From assembly GCF_002995495.1 (NCBI RefSeq), contig NZ_PVZV01000004.1:434001-498000 (forward strand): DNA of 64,000 nt, given 5' to 3'. The stretch's first letter is position 1; every line of letters starts with the position of its first letter. The DNA comes from Actinocorallia populi (GTDB lineage: Bacteria; Actinomycetota; Actinomycetes; Streptosporangiales; Streptosporangiaceae). Of the stretch, positions 6,471 to 35,526 are shown piece by piece. The notes below the pieces were generated by a model, which was given only the letters and a program-made list of their open reading frames with translations, had not been told where the DNA came from and made no database searches. A program made the position numbers and the translations under genes.

Positions 6471-9146
6471 TCAGGGAGCGGCGAGGGTCCGCCGGAGGCG
6501 GACGGCTTCCTTGGCGGGACGGGAGGAAGGGGAGGCCGGGGTCCAGTCGGCGAGGGCGGGAAGCGCCTCGCGGACATGGTGGATTTCGGCGGTGGTGGTG
6601 GCCAGCGCGAGGAAGGAGGCGAGGCCGGAGCGGGCGGAGGCGCCGGGCAGGGGGAGGAGGACGGGAACGGCCTCGGCGAAGAAGGGCCAGAGCGGGGCGC
6701 CCGCGCGGACGGCTTCGGTCAGGGGCGGGAGCAGGCGGGTGAGGGGGAAGGAGCCGGCTTCCAGGAGGGACGGGAGGAGCCGGCCGAGCTCGACGGCCGG
6801 AAGGGCGCCCTGGGCGGCGAACGACAGGAGGGCGTCGACGGCTCCGGCGCGGTCGGCGGCGCGTTCGGAACCGAGGCCGTGGAGGAGGACCGCCGCGGTG
6901 GCGGAGCCGGTGGGGCCCGTCGCGTCGGCCAGGGCGGGCAGGACGGCGGCCGGGTCGTAGGAGTCGTAGGGGCGGGTGGCGGTCTGGTGCAGCAGGTGGG
7001 CGGCGACGAGCTCGCGGTGGGAGGGCAGGATCGCCGGCCACCAGGGAGCCCACGGGCCGTGGTGGCCGGGCGGGTACTCCTCCTTCTCCGGGGGCCGGGC
7101 GATCGTGCCGATGAGGCGGCCCGCGTCCAGGGGGGAGTCGCAGGAGACCGCGGCGTGGAAGTGCGAGATGTCCGTCCAGGCGGGGGTCGGGGACCAGGAG
7201 TAATGGCGTCGTTTGACCGTGATGAAGCCGCAGGCGAGGTCGGGAGCGCGGTAACCGCCCTCGGCCAGCCATGCGCGGGCCCGTGCGGCGGCGGGGGAGG
7301 ACAGGCCGTCCAGCGCGGGAACGCGGTCGGTGCCGACGGGGAGGCGCAGGAGGGCCTGCTCGAGGTCGTACTGTCCCGGTTCCAGACCCGTCTCTTCCAG
7401 GGTGCGCAGCCGGGCGGCGAAGACGTCGGGGTCCAGGTGGCCGGTGGAGGAGGTGGGGGTGGCCAGCAGGACCGGCGCGCCGAAACAGGCCGCGGCGTCG
7501 AGGAAACGGAGCCGCAGCAGGCGTGCGGGGGCGGGGAGGCTCAGCTCGCTCTGGGAGAGCACGGAGCTGCGGTAGTCGTCGAGGAAACGGCTCGGCTGGT
7601 GTTGCAACAGGAGGTGGACGAGGAGGAAATGCCCGTGGAAATGGGCGAGGTGGCTCCTGTGCAGCAGGTACGGCATGTTGTTCTGGACGTGCTGCCGGAG
7701 CTCCTCGGCGGCGGCGGGGCCCACGGTGACCAGACCGGCGAGCAGCCGCTCCATCTCGGGCCAGCTCATGCGGCTGTCATGCAGATGAAGCGCGGTCTCC
7801 TCGACGAGCTCGGCGGGTGAGGCGATCGGCCCCGGAAGGTCCGTCGGAACGGGCGCGTACAGCACGGGAGGCGCCTGGGGCTCGGCGGCCTCGACCGCGC
7901 CGAACGCCTCGGCGACCAGCGGCAGGAGCGTGCCGGGCAGCACGCTCGCGGCCTCCCGGACGGTCTCGGCCGTGAGCGGGTCGACCTTCGCCGCGTACTT
8001 CACCGCGAGCTTCACCGCACGTTCCCGAACCTCGGGCCGCTCGTGCCCGAACAACCCCGCGGCGAACCCGACCACGGCGGCCTCACGCCCCCGGGCACGC
8101 GCCGTGCGGTCCAGCCAGACGAGCACCGCCTTGACGAGCTTGGCCTCGGGCCGGAACAACATGGCCTCGGCCGTCTCGGCGAAGAGCCCGCCGTCCAGCG
8201 GCGTCCGCTCGTCGACCGCCTTGACCTGCGCGAACGCCAGGTCCGCCACGGCGGTAGGCGCGGCGGCCAGCAGCCGCACGTAGTCGCGGACCCGGGTGGA
8301 GCTCTCCTCGACGGACGGCGCCAGCGCCTGGTGCAGCCGGACGAACCACGCGAGGTTCCGCGCCCGGCCGCCGCGCAGGAAACGCCGGACGCATCCGTCG
8401 AGCAGCGTCTCCCTGCTCACCGCCGCATCCGCCTGTGCGCCGTCCGCACCGCCTGCCGGGCTCACGATGCCTGCGGAGTCCGCCGCCGCGAGGAGCTTGC
8501 CGATCCAGGAACCGGTGCGGCTCCACGTTCCGTTCTGCTCGGGCCGCTCGTCGGCGAGCCGGGCGCCGACTCCCTCGGCCTCGAAGAGGAAGGGCACGAG
8601 CGCGGGGAAGAACGGGTCCTGCCCGCGCGGGGTCGTGCACCGCCAGACCAGCCAGCCGATGACGAAGGCGTCGTCCGTCGCGGGGGCCTCCCCGGCGGAG
8701 GCGAGCAGCCGCGCCGCGACCTCCCAGCTCAGCCCGCCCTCCTCCTCCCAGGGCACCATGTCGCGGAGACGGAGCCTCCCGGCCATCCGCCGTCCGACGT
8801 CTGCCCGCCACGAGACGGGCCGGAGGGAGGCGGCCTGCAGCACGGCCTCCGCCGCCCGGGGCGCGGTCCGCCAGATCTCGAGGTCCCGGCGGAAGAGCCA
8901 GGTGGTGGCGGCGGCGGGCGGAAGGCACGCGGCTCCGGCAGCCTTCAAAGCCGTGTTCTGCGCGATGTTCAGCTCGACACCCCCCGTACGGCGCCAGAAG
9001 TTCTCGTTGTCACGTGAACGCACGAAGGCGGGCAGCTCGCGTGCGACCTCCTTGCATCCCGCGTCGTCCAACGGCTCCAGCAGCTTCAGCACCGCCGGCA
9101 CGTCTCCGATGGAGATCCGCTCGCGCAGCTCTTCCCAGACGGGCAT
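6471..9146 (-). CDS. DUF6493 family protein
   Basis: Seen: 891 aa from ATG at 9146 (MPVWEELRERISIGDVPAVL); the open frame continues 45 codons upstream into the SWIM gene, which is not credible as start. The body is almost entirely alpha-helical with HEAT-like alternation (many LL, LAE and ARxWLAE stretches, e.g. VREAASVLPGTLLPLVAEAF), consistent with a solenoid. Known: DUF6493 proteins regularly sit next to SWIM zinc-finger proteins in actinobacteria; their role is unknown. Here the SWIM gene's stop lies 1 nt before this start on the same strand, so the two should be co-translated. Confidence 0.75.
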   Translation of the reverse strand: MPVWEELRERISIGDVPAVLKLLEPLDDAGCKEVARELPAFVRSRDNENFWRRTGGVELNIAQNTALKAAGAACLPPAAATTWLFRRDLEIWRTAPRAAEAVLQAASLRPVSWRADVGRRMAGRLRLRDMVPWEEEGGLSWEVAARLLASAGEAPATDDAFVIGWLVWRCTTPRGQDPFFPALVPFLFEAEGVGARLADERPEQNGTWSRTGSWIGKLLAAADSAGIVSPAGGADGAQADAAVSRETLLDGCVRRFLRGGRARNLAWFVRLHQALAPSVEESSTRVRDYVRLLAAAPTAVADLAFAQVKAVDERTPLDGGLFAETAEAMLFRPEAKLVKAVLVWLDRTARARGREAAVVGFAAGLFGHERPEVRERAVKLAVKYAAKVDPLTAETVREAASVLPGTLLPLVAEAFGAVEAAEPQAPPVLYAPVPTDLPGPIASPAELVEETALHLHDSRMSWPEMERLLAGLVTVGPAAAEELRQHVQNNMPYLLHRSHLAHFHGHFLLVHLLLQHQPSRFLDDYRSSVLSQSELSLPAPARLLRLRFLDAAACFGAPVLLATPTSSTGHLDPDVFAARLRTLEETGLEPGQYDLEQALLRLPVGTDRVPALDGLSSPAAARARAWLAEGGYRAPDLACGFITVKRRHYSWSPTPAWTDISHFHAAVSCDSPLDAGRLIGTIARPPEKEEYPPGHHGPWAPWWPAILPSHRELVAAHLLHQTATRPYDSYDPAAVLPALADATGPTGSATAAVLLHGLGSERAADRAGAVDALLSFAAQGALPAVELGRLLPSLLEAGSFPLTRLLPPLTEAVRAGAPLWPFFAEAVPVLLPLPGASARSGLASFLALATTTAEIHHVREALPALADWTPASPSSRPAKEAVRLRRTLAAP

Positions 9147-9147
9147 G

Positions 9148-10473
9148 TCAGTTCTCCTCGCGGGTGTGGATCCGGGTGGCCAGCACGTGCTTGCAGGGGC
9201 CGCGCCCGCCCCGGTGGCCCGTCCACCACGGGCAGGTGCACGACCACGTCTCCAACCGCACCTGGTACACGCCCGTGTCACCGGTCACCTGCGCCACCCC
9301 GGGGGAAGTGATGCGTACGCCGCCCCGTTCGGCCAGCGCGCGGGCGGCACGCAGCCGCGGGTTCATCGCGTTGACGCGCGCCGCGTCGTAGGGCAGCTCC
9401 CGGTGGAAGAACGCCGCCTCCGCCGTGTCGTAACCGACCTTCCCGCCGGTGCCGAGCTGGGTGAGGGCCGCCCGGACCCGGGACGGCTCCAGCCCCGCCC
9501 GGACGGCGAGGTCACCGGGCTCGAGCCGCGGTTTGAACGCCAGCAGCGCCGCGACGAGCTCGGCGTCGGCGGCCGTCTCGTCCCCGGCGAGCGCGTCCAG
9601 CACCGCGCCCTCCCCGGAGAATCCCCGGTTGAGCTCGGGCGAGAGCGTCAGGACGTACCGCATCCCCGGAAGCTCCAGCTCCCACGCGCTCGCCACCGGC
9701 GAAGACCCTGCGGCGACCACGGGCCCGTACACCCGCATCCCCTTGGCGAAGCGCAGCAGCGGCGCGAGTGTCGCAAGCCGCTCCGGCCCCGCGAGGCACA
9801 CCGCACCCGGTGCGGGCCGCGATGCCACCCGCAACCCCCGCCCGGCGGGCTGCGCCCACAGCACCTGCCCCCGCCGAGGCAGCCCCCGCACGAACCGCAC
9901 GGCCTCGGCGGCAGGCAGCTCGGCCCGCAGATCGAACCCCGAGGCGATCGCCTGCACCTCGGCGAAGGACCGCAGCCACCTCTCGGGCAACGGCACCTTC
10001 TTCTCCACGGTCGAACCCTCCACGGTGGTGACGACGAGCTCGTCCTCCCCCACGGCCAGATGCAGAGGCTCCGACCCCCCGACCCGGGCGAGCGCCTCCC
10101 GCAACGGCCCGTTGACGTCCACGTTCGTCGTCCCGAGCGCCGTCACCTCCCCGTCGAGCGCCTCGGACAGCACATCGAGCCGCGCGTACACCCCCGCACA
10201 GGCCGAGAACGACTCCATCCGCAACCTGTCCCCGTTGCAGGTGACCACCGGATCCCGAAACCCGGTCGGCCGCGGCTGGAAGTACCGCGTCTGCGCCACA
10301 TCAGCGAGCCCCAGCAGCCCCGCCGCCCCCACATCCCCCCGAGCGAGCACCCCGCTGAAGAAATGCGGATGCGCCACCACCCCCCGGCTGGTCGTCCCGC
10401 CCGAAGTGGCGAGCCCGAGCCGCCCCCCGACCAGCCCCGAAGGAGCCGCATACGAATACGCCTGCGTCGTCAT
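9148..10473 (-). CDS. SWIM zinc-finger protein
   Basis: Seen: 441 aa from ATG at 10473. The C terminus (about residues 415-435) carries WSCTCPWW...GPCKH, the CxCx(n)CxH pattern of the SWIM domain that binds zinc and DNA or protein. The N-terminal half is all beta/alpha with no recognised motif. A TTG three codons upstream is an alternative start. The gene leads an operon with the DUF6493 protein. Known: such pairs are often near MoxR-AAA/VWA genes; none is seen here. Inference: a two-protein nucleic-acid-linked complex of unknown role. Confidence 0.8.
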   Translation of the reverse strand: MTTQAYSYAAPSGLVGGRLGLATSGGTTSRGVVAHPHFFSGVLARGDVGAAGLLGLADVAQTRYFQPRPTGFRDPVVTCNGDRLRMESFSACAGVYARLDVLSEALDGEVTALGTTNVDVNGPLREALARVGGSEPLHLAVGEDELVVTTVEGSTVEKKVPLPERWLRSFAEVQAIASGFDLRAELPAAEAVRFVRGLPRRGQVLWAQPAGRGLRVASRPAPGAVCLAGPERLATLAPLLRFAKGMRVYGPVVAAGSSPVASAWELELPGMRYVLTLSPELNRGFSGEGAVLDALAGDETAADAELVAALLAFKPRLEPGDLAVRAGLEPSRVRAALTQLGTGGKVGYDTAEAAFFHRELPYDAARVNAMNPRLRAARALAERGGVRITSPGVAQVTGDTGVYQVRLETWSCTCPWWTGHRGGRGPCKHVLATRIHTREEN

Positions 10474-10630
10474 GCCCCGCAAGGTAGATCACCTCACTGA
10501 CAGAACGCTCGATCCCAGCGATCACCTGAATTCATACCGATCCAGGACGACCGGACCCCCGCCTCGAACTAGCGGCAAAGATTTCGAAAAGTAGTCATAC
10601 GAACACTCATGGTGAAGCAAGATTCCGGGC

Positions 10631-11542
10631 ATGCCCAGTCCCATCCACGAAGCACTGCATCACGCGCTCCGGGACGACCCGGAACTGATCGGCAGTGCCC
10701 TGCGCCACGCCGCAGGAGTCCGCCTGAACGTGATCAAGACAGAGGAGATCACCAATGACGCCACCAGCATCCAGGTCACCGAGCGCCGCTGCGACACCGT
10801 CATGCGCCTGGAGGTCGAAGACCACGGCACCGTCATCCTGCTCGTGGAGTCGCAGACCAGAAAAGACCCGGACAAGGAGACTGTCTGGCCGCAGATCGTC
10901 GCCCACTTCCAGAACCGGTACGACTGCCCCGTCATCCTGCTGGTCATCACCCAGCACGAGATCACCGCCGCCTGGGCCCACGGCCCTTTCTCGCGGTCCT
11001 TCGCAGGTCTGCGCGCCAGCCTCGTCCTCTGCCCCACCGTCGTCGGCCCTGTCACCGTCCCGCCGATCACCGACCCGGCCCAGGCTCGTGCCGACATCTC
11101 CGACGTGGTCCTGTCCGCCCTCGTCAACGGCTCTTCCGAGGATGCCCCTGGCATACTGGAAGCGCTGAGAGACGCCCTGAACACCCTCGGCGAGGAAGAG
11201 AGGGTCGCCCGCTACGCCGGACTCGTCCAAGCGAGCCTCCAGAACAATCCGATCGCTCTGACCCTGTGGGAGGACATCATGAGCACCAGCACCCAGCGCT
11301 TCGTCTCCACCGCCGAAGCACGGGGAGAAGCACGAGGGGAAGCCCGGGGAGAGGCACGGGGAGAAGCCCGTGGACGAGTTGCGGGAGAAGTCAAGGCGCT
11401 GCTCCTGACACTCGAGACCCGGGGCATCGCCGTCACCGACGAGGCCCTGGAGCGCATCAGCGGCTGCGACGACCTGCAGCAGATCGAGGCATGGATCGTG
11501 CGTGCGCAGGGAGTCACCGCCGTCGAGGAGCTCTTCGACTGA
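10631..11542 (+). CDS. Rpn/YhgA-type PD-(D/E)XK nuclease family protein
   Basis: Seen: 303 aa. The core has RCDTVMRLEV...GTVILLVESQTRKD, matching the D...ExQ nuclease motif of Rpn (recombination-promoting nuclease, formerly 'transposase_31') proteins. WPQIVAHFQNRYDCPVILLVI follows as the usual core strand/helix. Residues 229-248 are five perfect EARG repeats coded by a 12-bp tandem repeat, leading to a short C-terminal helical domain, a layout common in this family. Known: E. coli RpnA-E are Mg-dependent nucleases stimulating RecA-independent recombination. The actinobacterial members are not characterised. Single gene, convergent with rhamnulokinase. Confidence 0.75.
   Translation: MPSPIHEALHHALRDDPELIGSALRHAAGVRLNVIKTEEITNDATSIQVTERRCDTVMRLEVEDHGTVILLVESQTRKDPDKETVWPQIVAHFQNRYDCPVILLVITQHEITAAWAHGPFSRSFAGLRASLVLCPTVVGPVTVPPITDPAQARADISDVVLSALVNGSSEDAPGILEALRDALNTLGEEERVARYAGLVQASLQNNPIALTLWEDIMSTSTQRFVSTAEARGEARGEARGEARGEARGRVAGEVKALLLTLETRGIAVTDEALERISGCDDLQQIEAWIVRAQGVTAVEELFD
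11315..11374 (+). repeat. 12-bp tandem repeat coding EARG x5
   Basis: Seen: five in-frame 12-bp units with small third-position differences, all coding Glu-Ala-Arg-Gly inside the Rpn-like gene. Units are a whole number of codons, so gain or loss would change only linker length. Confidence 0.85.
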
Positions 11543-31047: not shown

Positions 31048-32859
31048 TCAATCGGGGAGAGCCAGGGATGCGGTGCTCTCGGAACCGGAGCCGGTCCATT
31101 CGGCGGCGAGCCCGCGGTAGTAGGAACTGGAGGCCATCAGGTCGTGGTGGGTGCCGGACGCGGTGACGGCGCCCTGGTCGAGCACGATGATCCGGGTGGC
31201 GGTGCGGATGGTGGTGAAGCGGTGCGCGATGACGATGAGGGAGCACTCGGCGGCGGCCTGATCGATCGTGCGGCGTAGCGCGGCCTCGTTCTCGGCGTCC
31301 AGGTGGGCGGTCGGTTCGTCGAGGAGCAGCAGGCGGGGGCGGGCCAGGAGGGCGCGGGCGATCGCGACCCGCTGACGCTCACCGCCGGACAGCGCCGCCC
31401 CGCGTTCGCCCACCGGAGTGTCCAGACCCAGCGGCAGCCGGGTGACCAGTCCGCTGAGATTGGCCAGCCCGATCACGCGTTCGAGATCGGCTCCGGCCGC
31501 CTCGGGGCGGGCGTAGAGGAGGTTGTCGCGGAGCGTGCCGTGCAGGATCGGGCAGTCCTGGTCGACCAGGCCGATCCCGGCCCGGTGGGCGGCGCGGTCC
31601 AGCCGGCGCAGGTCGGCGCCGTCCGCCAGGATCCGGCCGCGGCCGGGGTCGTAGAAGCGCTCGATCAGCGCGAAGACCGTCGACTTCCCGGCTCCGGACG
31701 GGCCGATCAGCGCGAGGTGCCCGCGGTCGGGAACCTGGAAGGACACCCCGCGCAGTACCGGCCGCTCCGGCTCGTAGCCGAACCACACGTCGCGGAACTC
31801 CAGTACCGGGGTGTTCTCGCACGCTGTCGGCGGCACCGCTGAGCCGCTCCCCTCGCGGGGCCAGGCGAGCACCTCGTTGATCCGGTGCACCGCGCCGGTC
31901 GCCTGCTGCAGGACGCTGGCCGCCTCGAAGACCGAGCCGAGCGGCCCGGCCAGGTACACCATGTACAGCAGGAAGGCGACGAGATCGGCGATCGACCCCG
32001 CACCGGACGCGACACGCATCCCGCCGATGAGCAGGACCAGCAGGAACGAGCCGTTGATCGCCAGATCACCGGCGGGCGCGACGGCCGCGTCGTACCGGGC
32101 CATCCGTACATTCGCGGTGTAGGCGTCGTGGGCCCGCCGCGCGATGCGCCCCGCCTCTCTGTCCTCGGCACGGCAGGCCCGTACGGTGCGGATCGCGCCC
32201 AGCGCCCGTTCGAGGTCGGCGGCCAGCTCACCGGTCGCGGTCTGGCCCGCCAGAGATGCCGCCCGGACCCTGCGCAGGGCGAGCCAGAGCACCGAGCAGG
32301 CGACGGCGACCGGTGCCGCGACCAACAGGAACAGGACCGGGTCCAGCCAGACCATCAGCGCCACGGCCCCGGCCAGCCCGAAACAGCCTGTCACCGCGTC
32401 GGTGAACCCGGTGGCGACCACCTGGCGCAGCGCGGTGGTGTCGGTGCCGGCCCGGGAGATCAGGTCACCGAGCCGGCGCCGGTCGTACACCGGCATCCGC
32501 AACCGCAGCAGCCGGTCGATCAGCCTGAGCCGGACGCCGAGCACCACCGCCTCACCGGCGCGCGCCAGGGCATACCGAACACCCCCCTCGGTCAGCGCCT
32601 GCGTGAGGCACAGCACGACCAGCGCCACCACGGCGCCCCACGCCACCGGGCCGGAGCCGGCACTCTCGATCACCCTCTTGACCAGCAGCGGCTGCACCAA
32701 CCCCAGTCCCGAGGCGGCCAGCGCCAGCGCCAGCGCGCCCCCGGCCGCCCCGCGCTGCCCGGCCAGCAGCCCCAGCATCTCGCGCAGTCCCACCCGACGG
32801 CCCTCGACCCTCCCGTCTTCGGCCCGATCGCCTCCGATGCCGCGCGGGTCACCGCTCAT
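31048..32859 (-). CDS. Lasso peptide ABC exporter (D protein)
   Basis: Seen: 603 aa from ATG at 32859, overlapping the B2 stop. Six membrane segments (residues 30-320) then an ABC domain: GPSGAGKST, LSGGERQRVAIARAL, LLLLDEPTAHLD, VIAHRFTTI. Half-transporter, acts as a homodimer. Last gene of the A-C-B1-B2-D cluster, so its job is export of and self-protection against the lasso peptide. Confidence 0.88.
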   Translation of the reverse strand: MSGDPRGIGGDRAEDGRVEGRRVGLREMLGLLAGQRGAAGGALALALAASGLGLVQPLLVKRVIESAGSGPVAWGAVVALVVLCLTQALTEGGVRYALARAGEAVVLGVRLRLIDRLLRLRMPVYDRRRLGDLISRAGTDTTALRQVVATGFTDAVTGCFGLAGAVALMVWLDPVLFLLVAAPVAVACSVLWLALRRVRAASLAGQTATGELAADLERALGAIRTVRACRAEDREAGRIARRAHDAYTANVRMARYDAAVAPAGDLAINGSFLLVLLIGGMRVASGAGSIADLVAFLLYMVYLAGPLGSVFEAASVLQQATGAVHRINEVLAWPREGSGSAVPPTACENTPVLEFRDVWFGYEPERPVLRGVSFQVPDRGHLALIGPSGAGKSTVFALIERFYDPGRGRILADGADLRRLDRAAHRAGIGLVDQDCPILHGTLRDNLLYARPEAAGADLERVIGLANLSGLVTRLPLGLDTPVGERGAALSGGERQRVAIARALLARPRLLLLDEPTAHLDAENEAALRRTIDQAAAECSLIVIAHRFTTIRTATRIIVLDQGAVTASGTHHDLMASSSYYRGLAAEWTGSGSESTASLALPD

Positions 32860-33277
32860 GGCGAGGGGGCACGGACAGCAGGGGGCTGAGGTAGCCGTCG
32901 GGCGTCCCTTCGCCGACCATCCGGCCGTCCGCCTCGACCCAGGCGTGCGCGCCGAACGGGGGCATCGTCCGGACGCCGACGCACCAGGTCGGCCAGGTGC
33001 CCGACATCCGGCACAGCAGGACGGTCGCCAACGACCGGGGAAGGCAGCCCTGCGGGCCGAGGCAGACGAGGCTGACCGCGAGCACGGCGTCACGCGCGGC
33101 CTTCGCCTGGTCGTGGGCGGCGGGCACGGCGCCCCGGCTCAGCAGTGCCAGGATCCACCGGATGCGGCGGGGCGGCAGCAGGGCCAGCAGGCGGGCCGAC
33201 ACCACGGCGCCGCGGGCGGCGATCCGGCGGCCCGCGGGGATGCCGGTGGGGCGGTGGAGCGCGCTGGGCGTCGTCAT
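32849..33277 (-). CDS. Lasso peptide leader peptidase (B2 protein)
   Basis: Seen: 142 aa. Transglutaminase-like triad: Cys in LGPQGCLPRSLAT, His and Asp in FGAHAWVEADG. Known: B2 proteases cut the precursor after the conserved Thr(-2)-X(-1), with the precursor delivered by B1. ATG overlaps the B1 stop (ATGA); the end overlaps the exporter start by 11 nt. Confidence 0.9.
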   Translation of the reverse strand: MTTPSALHRPTGIPAGRRIAARGAVVSARLLALLPPRRIRWILALLSRGAVPAAHDQAKAARDAVLAVSLVCLGPQGCLPRSLATVLLCRMSGTWPTWCVGVRTMPPFGAHAWVEADGRMVGEGTPDGYLSPLLSVPPRHER

Positions 33278-33531
33278 GAGATCACCAACCGGGCGGATCG
33301 GAGCTCCTCCAGCAGCGCGGTCACGTCCCGAAGCGCCCGCGGTTCTTCGACCTCGAACTCCTCGGCCAGCGCCGCGGCGGTCCGCTCCGGGCCGGCGCCG
33401 GCCAGCATCAGCCGGACGATGAGCGCTCCCGTGGGGTTGAGCTGCCAGTACTCTCCGCTGCGCTCGTCGAGCAGCACGGTGCCGTACGAGGTGTCCGCGG
33501 TGGACACCCCGGGACGCAGTCGCAGTCCCAA
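33274..33531 (-). CDS. Lasso peptide recognition element (B1, PqqD-like)
   Basis: Seen: 85 aa, a RiPP recognition element: LLDERSGEYWQLNPTGALIVRLML and a C-terminal helix. TTG start at 33531, supported by AAAGGAG 8 nt before it; no better in-frame start exists. It binds the leader's YxxPxLxxxGxF segment and hands the precursor to B2. It lies 12 nt after the C gene and is translationally coupled to B2. Confidence 0.9.
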   Translation of the reverse strand: MGLRLRPGVSTADTSYGTVLLDERSGEYWQLNPTGALIVRLMLAGAGPERTAAALAEEFEVEEPRALRDVTALLEELRSARLVIS

Positions 33532-33543
33532 CGGGTTCTCCTT

Positions 33544-35394
33544 TCAGGGACGGGACACCGGATGCCGGGAGCCGCGCGCGGTGAGCGTGCGCAGCCAGAC
33601 CTCGCAGCCGATGGTGGAGTACAAGATCGCCTCTCGTAGGGCAGGGGTGGCCGGGCGGTCCGCCAGCTCCTTCAGCCGCCGCACGTCGACCAGTCCCAGC
33701 TCGGCCAGGCGGGACTCCGACCACAGCGCCGACAGGTCCTCACGGTGCGCGCGCAGGCCGGCGGAGGCGTCCAGCGCGGCCGTGGCCTTGCTGCTGCGCC
33801 GCAGGCACTCGTCGGGCACGATGCCGTGCATCGCCGCGACCAGGAGCGGCTTGTAGCGCCACGGCGTCACCCGGTCCTGCGGCCGGACGGCCAGGCACGC
33901 CTCGATCACCCGGTCGTCGAGGTAGGGGGAGGCCATGGGCAGGCCCGCCCGGGTGCTCATCTGCTCCCACTGCCGGATGATCCGGGTGCACTCGTGGATC
34001 GCGTAGAGGTCGACGTGCAGCCCCCGGTCGGAGGACAGCGGCGTGGCCGTGGCGGCCGCCTCCCGCACCGCCTCGCCCGCCTCCCGCACCGCCTCGGGGG
34101 TGACCCAGTCGAACATCCGGGGAGCCGTTCCCCAGCCGAGCGCGTTCGCCGCGGACGAAGGAGGAGGGCGGCGCAGGTCCGCGGCCGAGTCCGCCAGCCA
34201 CCGGCGGTAGGAGCGGTTGTCGGCCAGCGCCCGCGCGGTGTCCCCGGCCGGCCGGTTGAACAGGGAGCCGAAGCCGCGGAGCCGGTTCAGCGCGAGCAGG
34301 GGCCGTCTGCGCAGCAGCCGGTGATAGTAGGCCTCCGAGCACCAGGCGACGTGGTCGCCGCCGATGCCGGTCAGGTGCAGGCGGCTGCCCTTGGCGACCA
34401 GCCGGGGCACGTGGCCGAGCATCCGGGCGCGGTCCATCACCCCGATGGTCGGCTCGTCCAGCGGATCGTCGATCTCCAGCAGGTCCGCGTAGACCAGCGG
34501 GGACTCCTCGACGGGCCAGACGGCATGCTCCACCTCGGGCAGGTGGGCGGCCGCGCGCAGCGCCCACGGAAGGTCGTCGTCGGCGGGATCGAGTCCCGGC
34601 CAGGTGCCGGCGATGACCCGGGCCTCGCCCCGGGCGGCGAGGAAGCACAACGAGGTCGAGTCGAGCCCGCCGGAGAGGTCGCAGCTCACGGTACCGCCGC
34701 CCCGGGTGCGGGCCTCGACCGCCTCGGCCAGCGCGGACCTGACGTCGACGGCGCCTTCGGCCAGGGACCGCACGGGTTCCGGTGGTGCCCACCAGCGGTC
34801 CTGCCGGAAGGTCAGCCCGTCCGGCAGCACGGTGAGGCGGTGGCCGGGGTCGACGCTCTGGACGCCCTGCCACAACGAGGTCCGGAGCATCGGGTGCGGG
34901 ACGGGCCACAACAGGCGCACCGCGATCTGCCGCACGTCCGGTTCGGCGCCGAGGAGGGAGGCCAGGACGTCGGCGCGGTCGGCGGCCACGGTGACGCCGT
35001 TCACCCGGGCGTGGAACACCAGCCGCAGACCGGAGGCGGTGCCCTGGACGCACAGCCGTCCGTCCAGCGCGGCCACCAGGTGGAAGCTGCCCGGCAGGGA
35101 CCGGGCGAGCCGGCCGAGTCCCGCCGGGTCGGTCAGCCGCCCGGCTTCCCGGGTCAGCCGTGCGGTGTCGGCGGGGCAGGAGCCGATGACCGCCAGCCGG
35201 GTGTTCCCGGCTTCGGCCACGGTGATCTGGTCGTCCGGCCAGCGGCCGACCAGCCAGGGCCGGCCCGAGGGATGGGGGAGGACGCGGGAGCCGGGGGAGC
35301 GGAAGGCCGGGGCCACGGCGAGCGCGGCCTCGCGGTCCGGAAGGACCACGAAGTGCGACTCGCCGTGACCCGGCATGCCGAAGCGTTCTGGCAT
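33544..35394 (-). CDS. Lasso cyclase (asparagine synthetase-like C protein)
   Basis: Seen: 616 aa. ATP-binding PP-loop LSGGLDSTSLCF (about residue 240), HLTGIGGDHVAW, a helical C-terminal synthetase domain with ASPYLDDRVIEACL and RSSKATAALDASAGLR. The N-terminal glutaminase-like domain lacks the catalytic Cys2. Role: adenylates the Asp8 side chain and forms the macrolactam with the new N terminus. ATG at 35394 or the ATG six codons later may start the gene. It follows the precursor by 24 nt. Confidence 0.9.
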   Translation of the reverse strand: MPERFGMPGHGESHFVVLPDREAALAVAPAFRSPGSRVLPHPSGRPWLVGRWPDDQITVAEAGNTRLAVIGSCPADTARLTREAGRLTDPAGLGRLARSLPGSFHLVAALDGRLCVQGTASGLRLVFHARVNGVTVAADRADVLASLLGAEPDVRQIAVRLLWPVPHPMLRTSLWQGVQSVDPGHRLTVLPDGLTFRQDRWWAPPEPVRSLAEGAVDVRSALAEAVEARTRGGGTVSCDLSGGLDSTSLCFLAARGEARVIAGTWPGLDPADDDLPWALRAAAHLPEVEHAVWPVEESPLVYADLLEIDDPLDEPTIGVMDRARMLGHVPRLVAKGSRLHLTGIGGDHVAWCSEAYYHRLLRRRPLLALNRLRGFGSLFNRPAGDTARALADNRSYRRWLADSAADLRRPPPSSAANALGWGTAPRMFDWVTPEAVREAGEAVREAAATATPLSSDRGLHVDLYAIHECTRIIRQWEQMSTRAGLPMASPYLDDRVIEACLAVRPQDRVTPWRYKPLLVAAMHGIVPDECLRRSSKATAALDASAGLRAHREDLSALWSESRLAELGLVDVRRLKELADRPATPALREAILYSTIGCEVWLRTLTARGSRHPVSRP

Positions 35395-35418
35395 GGGTCG
35401 GACCGGTATCCGTTCCGC

Positions 35419-35526
35419 TCAGTTCTTGCTGAGGATCAGACGGTCGTTGCCGTTCTTGCCGAGGAGGCCGGTCACCTTGCGGAAAGTTCCGGATGCCACC
35501 AGGGCGGGGGGTTCGTAGCGCTGCAT
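35419..35526 (-). CDS. Lasso peptide precursor, citrulassin family
   Basis: Seen: 35 aa from ATG at 35526 with AAGGGAG upstream; the frame stays open further 5' without coding character. Leader shows the YxxPxLxxxGxFxxxT rule (Tyr4, Pro7, Leu9, Gly13, Phe15, Thr19). Thr at -2 and Gly at -1 give the core LLGKNGNDRLILSKN: Leu1, Asp8 for an 8-residue macrolactam ring, then a 7-residue tail. Known from memory: citrulassins have LLGxxGNDRLxLSKN, with Arg9 often converted to citrulline by an unlinked deiminase. No deiminase gene is seen in this window. If the core began at Gly20, Asp would be position 9. Confidence 0.9.
   Translation of the reverse strand: MQRYEPPALVASGTFRKVTGLLGKNGNDRLILSKN

Follow-up and report, generated by a model that had tools for sequence, protein, structure and literature searches.

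What does the lasso peptide cluster of Actinocorallia populi make, and where would the arginine beside the ring of its product be converted to citrulline? The cluster runs from position 35526 to position 31048, on the minus strand, of the window, by which we mean the whole stretch of 64,000 nucleotides that was analysed (C4:434001-498000). According to two reviews (PMC9266682 and PMC8498205, each in its available text), Arg9 of citrulassins is deiminated by a peptidylarginine deiminase (PAD) that is not linked to the cluster, the evidence being expression of the enzyme in a strain that makes des-citrulassin. Both reviews give the timing of deimination as not known in that text, and PMC8498205 says the same of whether the precursor or the folded lasso is the substrate. 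With the timing unsettled there, the place of PAD action could matter more than the addition of a new core. We consider it reasonably likely that A. populi would make a citrulassin-type lasso whose Arg9 is deiminated by an unlinked PAD, most probably outside the cytoplasm on the exported lasso.

The original prediction was of a complete A-C-B1-B2-D set of the citrulassin family, and translation together with Pfam and NCBIfam matches bears this out, with every part on the minus strand:

35419..35526, minus strand: A, precursor peptide of 35 aa with an ATG start, translated as a leader of 20 residues and the core LLGKNGNDRLILSKN
33544..35394, minus strand: C, lasso cyclase, asparagine-synthase-like, 616 aa (Asn_synthase, 3.3e-46)
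33274..33531, minus strand: B1, leader-binding PqqD-like protein of 85 aa with a TTG start (Pfam PqqD)
32849..33277, minus strand: B2, leader peptidase of 142 aa (NCBIfam lasso_biosyn_B2, 4.6e-34, above cut-off; Transglut_core3)
31048..32859, minus strand: D, ABC exporter of about 603 aa (ABC_membrane and ABC_tran), starting probably at 32859

The precursor (35526-35419) reads MQRYEPPALVASGTFRKVTG and then LLGKNGNDRLILSKN, as leader and core, and matches Pfam DUF5972 (3.1e-11) and the NCBIfam model lasso_leader_L3, in both cases above cut-off. Its translated leader has the predicted Tyr4, Pro7, Leu9, Gly13, Phe15 and Thr19, followed by Gly20, which puts Thr at the second-last position, as expected of a lasso leader; it is accompanied by C, B1 and B2, the genes by which a lasso cluster is recognised. 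The cyclase scores 267.5 bits against the albusnodin/ikarugamycin-type cyclase model of NCBIfam, under that model's cut-off of 300. B1 matches NCBIfam lasso_PqqD_Strm above cut-off (1.1e-31), and its TTG start is preceded by a purine-rich stretch that resembles a ribosome-binding site. C, B1, B2 and D follow one another with ends that overlap or lie close together, the frame of D ending at 31048 with 32859 as its likely start. All five frames are open and each matches its family. A search of the whole window returned no tRNA and no Rfam match above gathering score. Judged by its gene set and the core pattern LLxxxGNDRLxLSKN, this is a citrulassin lasso cluster of ordinary make-up.

The same arrangement is found elsewhere. 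When the window's proteins were compared by tblastn with 15 named genomes that carry a citrulassin core (L061-L075), the order A, C, B1, B2, D was kept in eight (L061, L066, L067, L068, L070, L072, L073 and L075), and a ninth, L074, has it too, with D running off the contig end. Because the gene order recurs in named relatives, the cluster is not a chance arrangement. Four of the fifteen (L062, L064, L069 and L071) are without a D homologue downstream of B2, a distant D match in L062 sitting on the opposite strand; the PAD-bearing A. geliboluensis is one of these four, and this counts against our main reading. In L063 the contig ends within C. In L065 (Actinomadura latina, 8001-11160) B1 goes unmatched and the match to B2 is short; this cluster is possibly a shortened one. 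The nearest precursors among the named genomes are those of Actinomadura, Spirillospora, Planomonospora, Planobispora and Bailinhaonella species, and G238 of the family sample carries its precursor and its PAD at positions identical to those in the named A. geliboluensis genome. From these relatives we infer that the host belongs to the Actinomadura family, outside Streptomyces.

The core LLGKNGNDRLILSKN fits the citrulassin pattern LLxxxGNDRLxLSKN, with Asp8 and Arg9 in place. Citrulassin A of S. albulus (LLGLAGNDRLVLSKN) has the same pattern and, in the available account of it, a Leu1-Asp8 ring, with Arg9 just outside the ring and a PAD encoded elsewhere in the genome. The window core differs from it at residues 4, 5 and 11, and its host lies in the Actinomadura family; among the 81 genomes searched, the citrulassin A core itself had no exact match and its relatives occurred in seven. 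Citrulassin N (Streptomyces sp. NAX00255; core LLQSSGNDRLILSKN), for which the available part of PMC12971885 lists a PAD, has the tail of the window core but reads QSS rather than GKN at residues 3, 4 and 5. The core had been put forward as a new variant marked by Lys4-Asn5 and Ile11, and comparison with other citrulassin precursors upholds the novelty of the exact combination. No core among the 34 that a 2026 survey gives in its Table 1 (PMC12971885) is identical to it, it is absent from the 67 other parsed precursors of our family and Streptomyces samples, and the exact string was not found in the literature searched. The parsed set derives from 69 precursor loci in 67 genomes, 68 of which were parsed, the window's own included (L207 did not fit the search expression). 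The novelty of the individual residues was rejected, since each occurs in published cores: the available text of PMC12971885 already has Lys4-Asn5 in the core of Longimycelium, and Ile11 is present in 59 of the 68 parsed cores. Two published cores share 14 of 15 residues with that of the window, namely LLGKHGNDRLILSKN from Streptomyces sp. NA07992, which differs by His5 and was also parsed from G488 and G499, and LLQKNGNDRLILSKN from Longimycelium tulufanense, which differs by Gln3; neither strain has a PAD in the available PMC12971885 listing. We therefore regard the window core as one more citrulassin core, a modest novelty that appears to lie in the combination, and as an addition to the family from a host outside Streptomyces. 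A short DNA pattern hit 17 places in the host's own genome, including the known precursor, and nothing further was learned from them.

Whether the product carries citrulline or is the des form had been left open, and the PAD had been described as normally unlinked and as missing from the window. The entire host genome (8.25 Mb in 25 contigs) was searched for PF03068, as had been proposed, and its sole match, at C4:26649-27911 (E 2.9e-65), lies outside the window, as claimed. The gene spans C4 26034 to 27929, on the same contig as the precursor and about 441 kb away from it. Its product is a protein of 631 aa with a single Pfam domain, and its sequence matches in PDB are protein-arginine deiminases of types 1-4 and 6. 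At four alignment columns, which we take to be the catalytic Asp350, His471, Asp473 and Cys645 of PAD4, the A. populi protein has the expected residue. Of the 83 PAD frames of the tree described below, 82 have the first Asp, all 83 have the His and the second Asp, and 81 have the Cys; two of the three departures are gaps. The two gene neighbours that were scanned encode a regulator of the AraC type and an MFS transporter. Because the genome has a PAD gene with catalytic-type residues in place, the citrulline form (calculated [M+H]+ 1637.93) is a better prediction than the des form (1636.95); the question that had been left open now leans towards citrulline, as a prediction of the product. The argument that the host has no PAD, and would thus make the des form, was rejected with the finding of the gene in the same genome. 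The fungal-type two-domain actinobacterial PAD (PMC8826395, PMC9174705) shares the PF03068 catalytic domain and the conserved catalytic residues, and the terms 'signal peptide' and 'lasso' have zero occurrences in the main text of those two papers.

The N-terminus of the A. populi PAD, MKDHKRIVGIGVSAVVLAQLTAC followed by G, has a hydrophobic stretch and then LTAC before the G, which is lipobox-like by a heuristic of our own rather than by a trained predictor, and the protein is probably exported. The heuristic looks for a net positive start, a hydrophobic stretch and either a lipobox or a small-residue cleavage site, and scans the possible starts within 110 codons upstream of a conserved LPN motif that serves as its anchor. 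In its first form the motif was too narrow, which left 34 of the 83 frames without an anchor and 49 to be scored, 45 of them positive; after that run the anchor was widened, the hydrophobicity limit was raised and the lipobox rule was changed. The revised test was passed by 73 of the 78 testable PAD frames, five of the 83 being without an anchor. The controls were 19 lasso cyclases, of which 1 passed, and 481 other six-frame ORFs, of which 69 did. Two of the five failing frames are cut by contig ends (L179 and L035), and the other three (L175, L033 and L039) are signal-like by eye. Among the PAD frames of citrulassin genomes 19 of 20 testable ones pass, the sole failure being cut by a contig end, and three further frames have no anchor. 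The PADs of G279 and G238 have an LAGC motif followed by G that was classed as a lipobox by the first form of the test and as ordinary by the revised form. No statement on export of the citrulassin PAD, or on deimination after export, was found in the literature searched, which did not extend to Harris 2020.

These observations suggest a pathway in which the steps of the cluster would be those of its protein families. B1 would bind the leader, B2 would cut the precursor after Gly20, C would join Leu1 to the side chain of Asp8 around the threaded tail, and D would export the lasso product. The PAD encoded about 441 kb away would then convert Arg9, the first residue beyond the ring, to citrulline, and it would do so outside the cytoplasm, on the folded, exported lasso. 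We place this step there because the A. populi PAD has a lipoprotein-like signal and its relatives in actinobacteria mostly begin with export-type N-termini, a feature of most of the PADs examined that makes deimination after export a simple prediction. PADs need calcium, the regulation of which may differ in actinobacterial PADs (PMC8826395, in its available part), and this need would better suit the outside of the cell because calcium is more plentiful there. On the fuller proposition, that deimination is an extracellular step in which a PAD that is exported and surface-anchored in this clade, and not dedicated to the pathway, acts on the finished lasso, our confidence is evenly balanced. 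An exported PAD, if that is what it is, would help to explain how an unlinked gene serves the citrulassin pathway. Since its gene is unlinked and occurs in many genomes that have no such cluster, an exported enzyme of this kind could also act on the peptides of neighbouring cells.

The distribution of PAD genes bears on whether the enzyme and the lasso belong together. Our samples were 341 genomes of the host's family, 392 of the genus of S. cellostaticus (the Streptomyces sample) and 3 of the host's genus, and a PF03068 match with E below 1e-40 was called strong. Of the 341 family genomes, 21 encode the precursor and 25 have a PF03068 match, strong in 13 of these; a strong PAD accompanies the precursor in 4 of the 21, versus 9 of the 320 others (Fisher one-sided p 0.005, phylogeny ignored), and any match in 5 of 21 versus 20 of 320. 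The precursor profile matched 66 genomes of the Streptomyces sample at E 0.001, and the 46 with E below 1e-11 were kept as citrulassin-type; in the 20 that were dropped the match stops somewhere between positions 20 and 31 of the 35-position model. A PAD match of any strength occurs in 66 of the 392 genomes: 17 of these belong to the 46 citrulassin genomes and 49 to the remaining 346 (p 0.0004, phylogeny ignored). PAD is thus commoner in citrulassin genomes in both samples, by tests that ignore phylogeny. It is missing from the majority of citrulassin genomes and not confined to them, and PAD as a strict citrulassin marker was rejected, since most PAD genomes have no precursor; for the same reason PADs may have other substrates. 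In the available part of Table 1 of PMC12971885 a PAD is listed for 15 of the 34 strains. Two cores were found only in the Actinomadura-family sample: LLGRHGNDRVVLSKN, in the PAD-bearing genomes G238 and G279, and LLGFHGNDRVILSKN, in G246, which has no PAD, and that table agrees, listing the former with a PAD and the latter without.

A tree was built from 83 open PAD frames, of which 68 came from the Streptomyces sample, 13 were the strong PADs of the family and 2 came from named genomes. Family matches that were weak, the copy in G487 that has an internal stop, and small fragments did not enter it. The method was a quick one, the branches are long and the deep joins unsure, and the tested enzyme WP_064069847.1 is not among the rows. 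The A. populi PAD belongs to a group of nine, all from its own family, that has full support, with G629, G515 and G396 of the Streptomyces sample as sister. The majority of the Streptomyces-sample PADs form a separate large group, and the position of the A. populi enzyme outside it counts against our main reading. This position and the lipoprotein-like signal are differences from the citrulassin A system. The nearest PADs by tree path are those of G279 and G238, which have a citrulassin core, followed by those of G270, G254 and G262, which have none.

The readings weighed here are not exclusive of one another. The cluster might yield des-citrulassin only; the PAD would then have other exported proteins or peptides as its substrates and be present by coincidence. 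The many PADs in genomes without a precursor (49 of 346 in the Streptomyces sample, and 9 of 320 strong ones in the family) are consistent with this, as are the citrulassin genomes without the enzyme (29 of 46 with no match in the Streptomyces sample, and 17 of 21 with no strong PAD in the family, G235 among them having a weak match), the 17 switches of the citrulassin label across the PAD tree, and the variation between PAD groups in the residues beside the active-site Asp. The enrichment of PAD in citrulassin genomes of both samples and the occurrence of the two nearest PADs, those of G279 and G238, in such genomes argue the other way, and we think the des-only reading unlikely. The cluster could also be silent or non-functional in culture and give no product, as might be supposed from the citrulassin-type Lp1, which went undetected in the strain or after S. 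coelicolor expression (PMC6856326, in its available part). With all five frames open and matched to their families, such an outcome seems quite improbable. Several other lasso tailoring enzymes act intracellularly, and the start codons of the PADs are inferred, so that a shorter, signal-less product could be made, but intracellular deimination, whether of the precursor or of the pre-export lasso, by a PAD that is unexported or acts before its own export, is very doubtful in view of the export-type N-termini (73 of 78 testable frames, and 19 of 20 in citrulassin genomes) and the calcium need noted above.

Some further loci came to light in these searches. Nine family genomes (L044-L047 and L049-L053; G230, G175, G138, G187, G253, G276, G170, G150 and G235) have open frames of about 790-1040 aa in which the PF03068 match is broken into pieces; these may form a divergent PAD-like group. 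Three PAD copies are apparently broken (L183 in G355, G487:C2 and G648:C1), one being split over two frames and two having an internal stop. PAD matches lie on very large plasmid records in 4 of 72,556 records (NZ_CP109493.1, NZ_CP108735.1, NZ_CP108785.1 and NZ_CP139046.1); the last is from strain KN37, for which a paper lists a citrulassin E cluster. Two different citrulassin precursors are encoded in each of G365 (L105, L194) and G609 (L098, L203). Actinomadura atramentaria (L076, 8001-8120) has a related leader start with a different C-terminal part, LGKGTWGWDNANQCLWLHCV, containing two cysteines. In Streptomyces hiroshimensis, roseoverticillatus and huiliensis (L077, L078 and L079, near 8001, or near 5120 in L079) a citrulassin-like leader with AGSFRKVTG precedes a quite different core, GLKDHGPKD(V/I)LGG(R/K)QVL, which is without Arg9. 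Matches to C, B1, B2 and D accompany it at 43-61% identity to those of the window, and two of these three genomes have a PAD match despite the core lacking Arg9.
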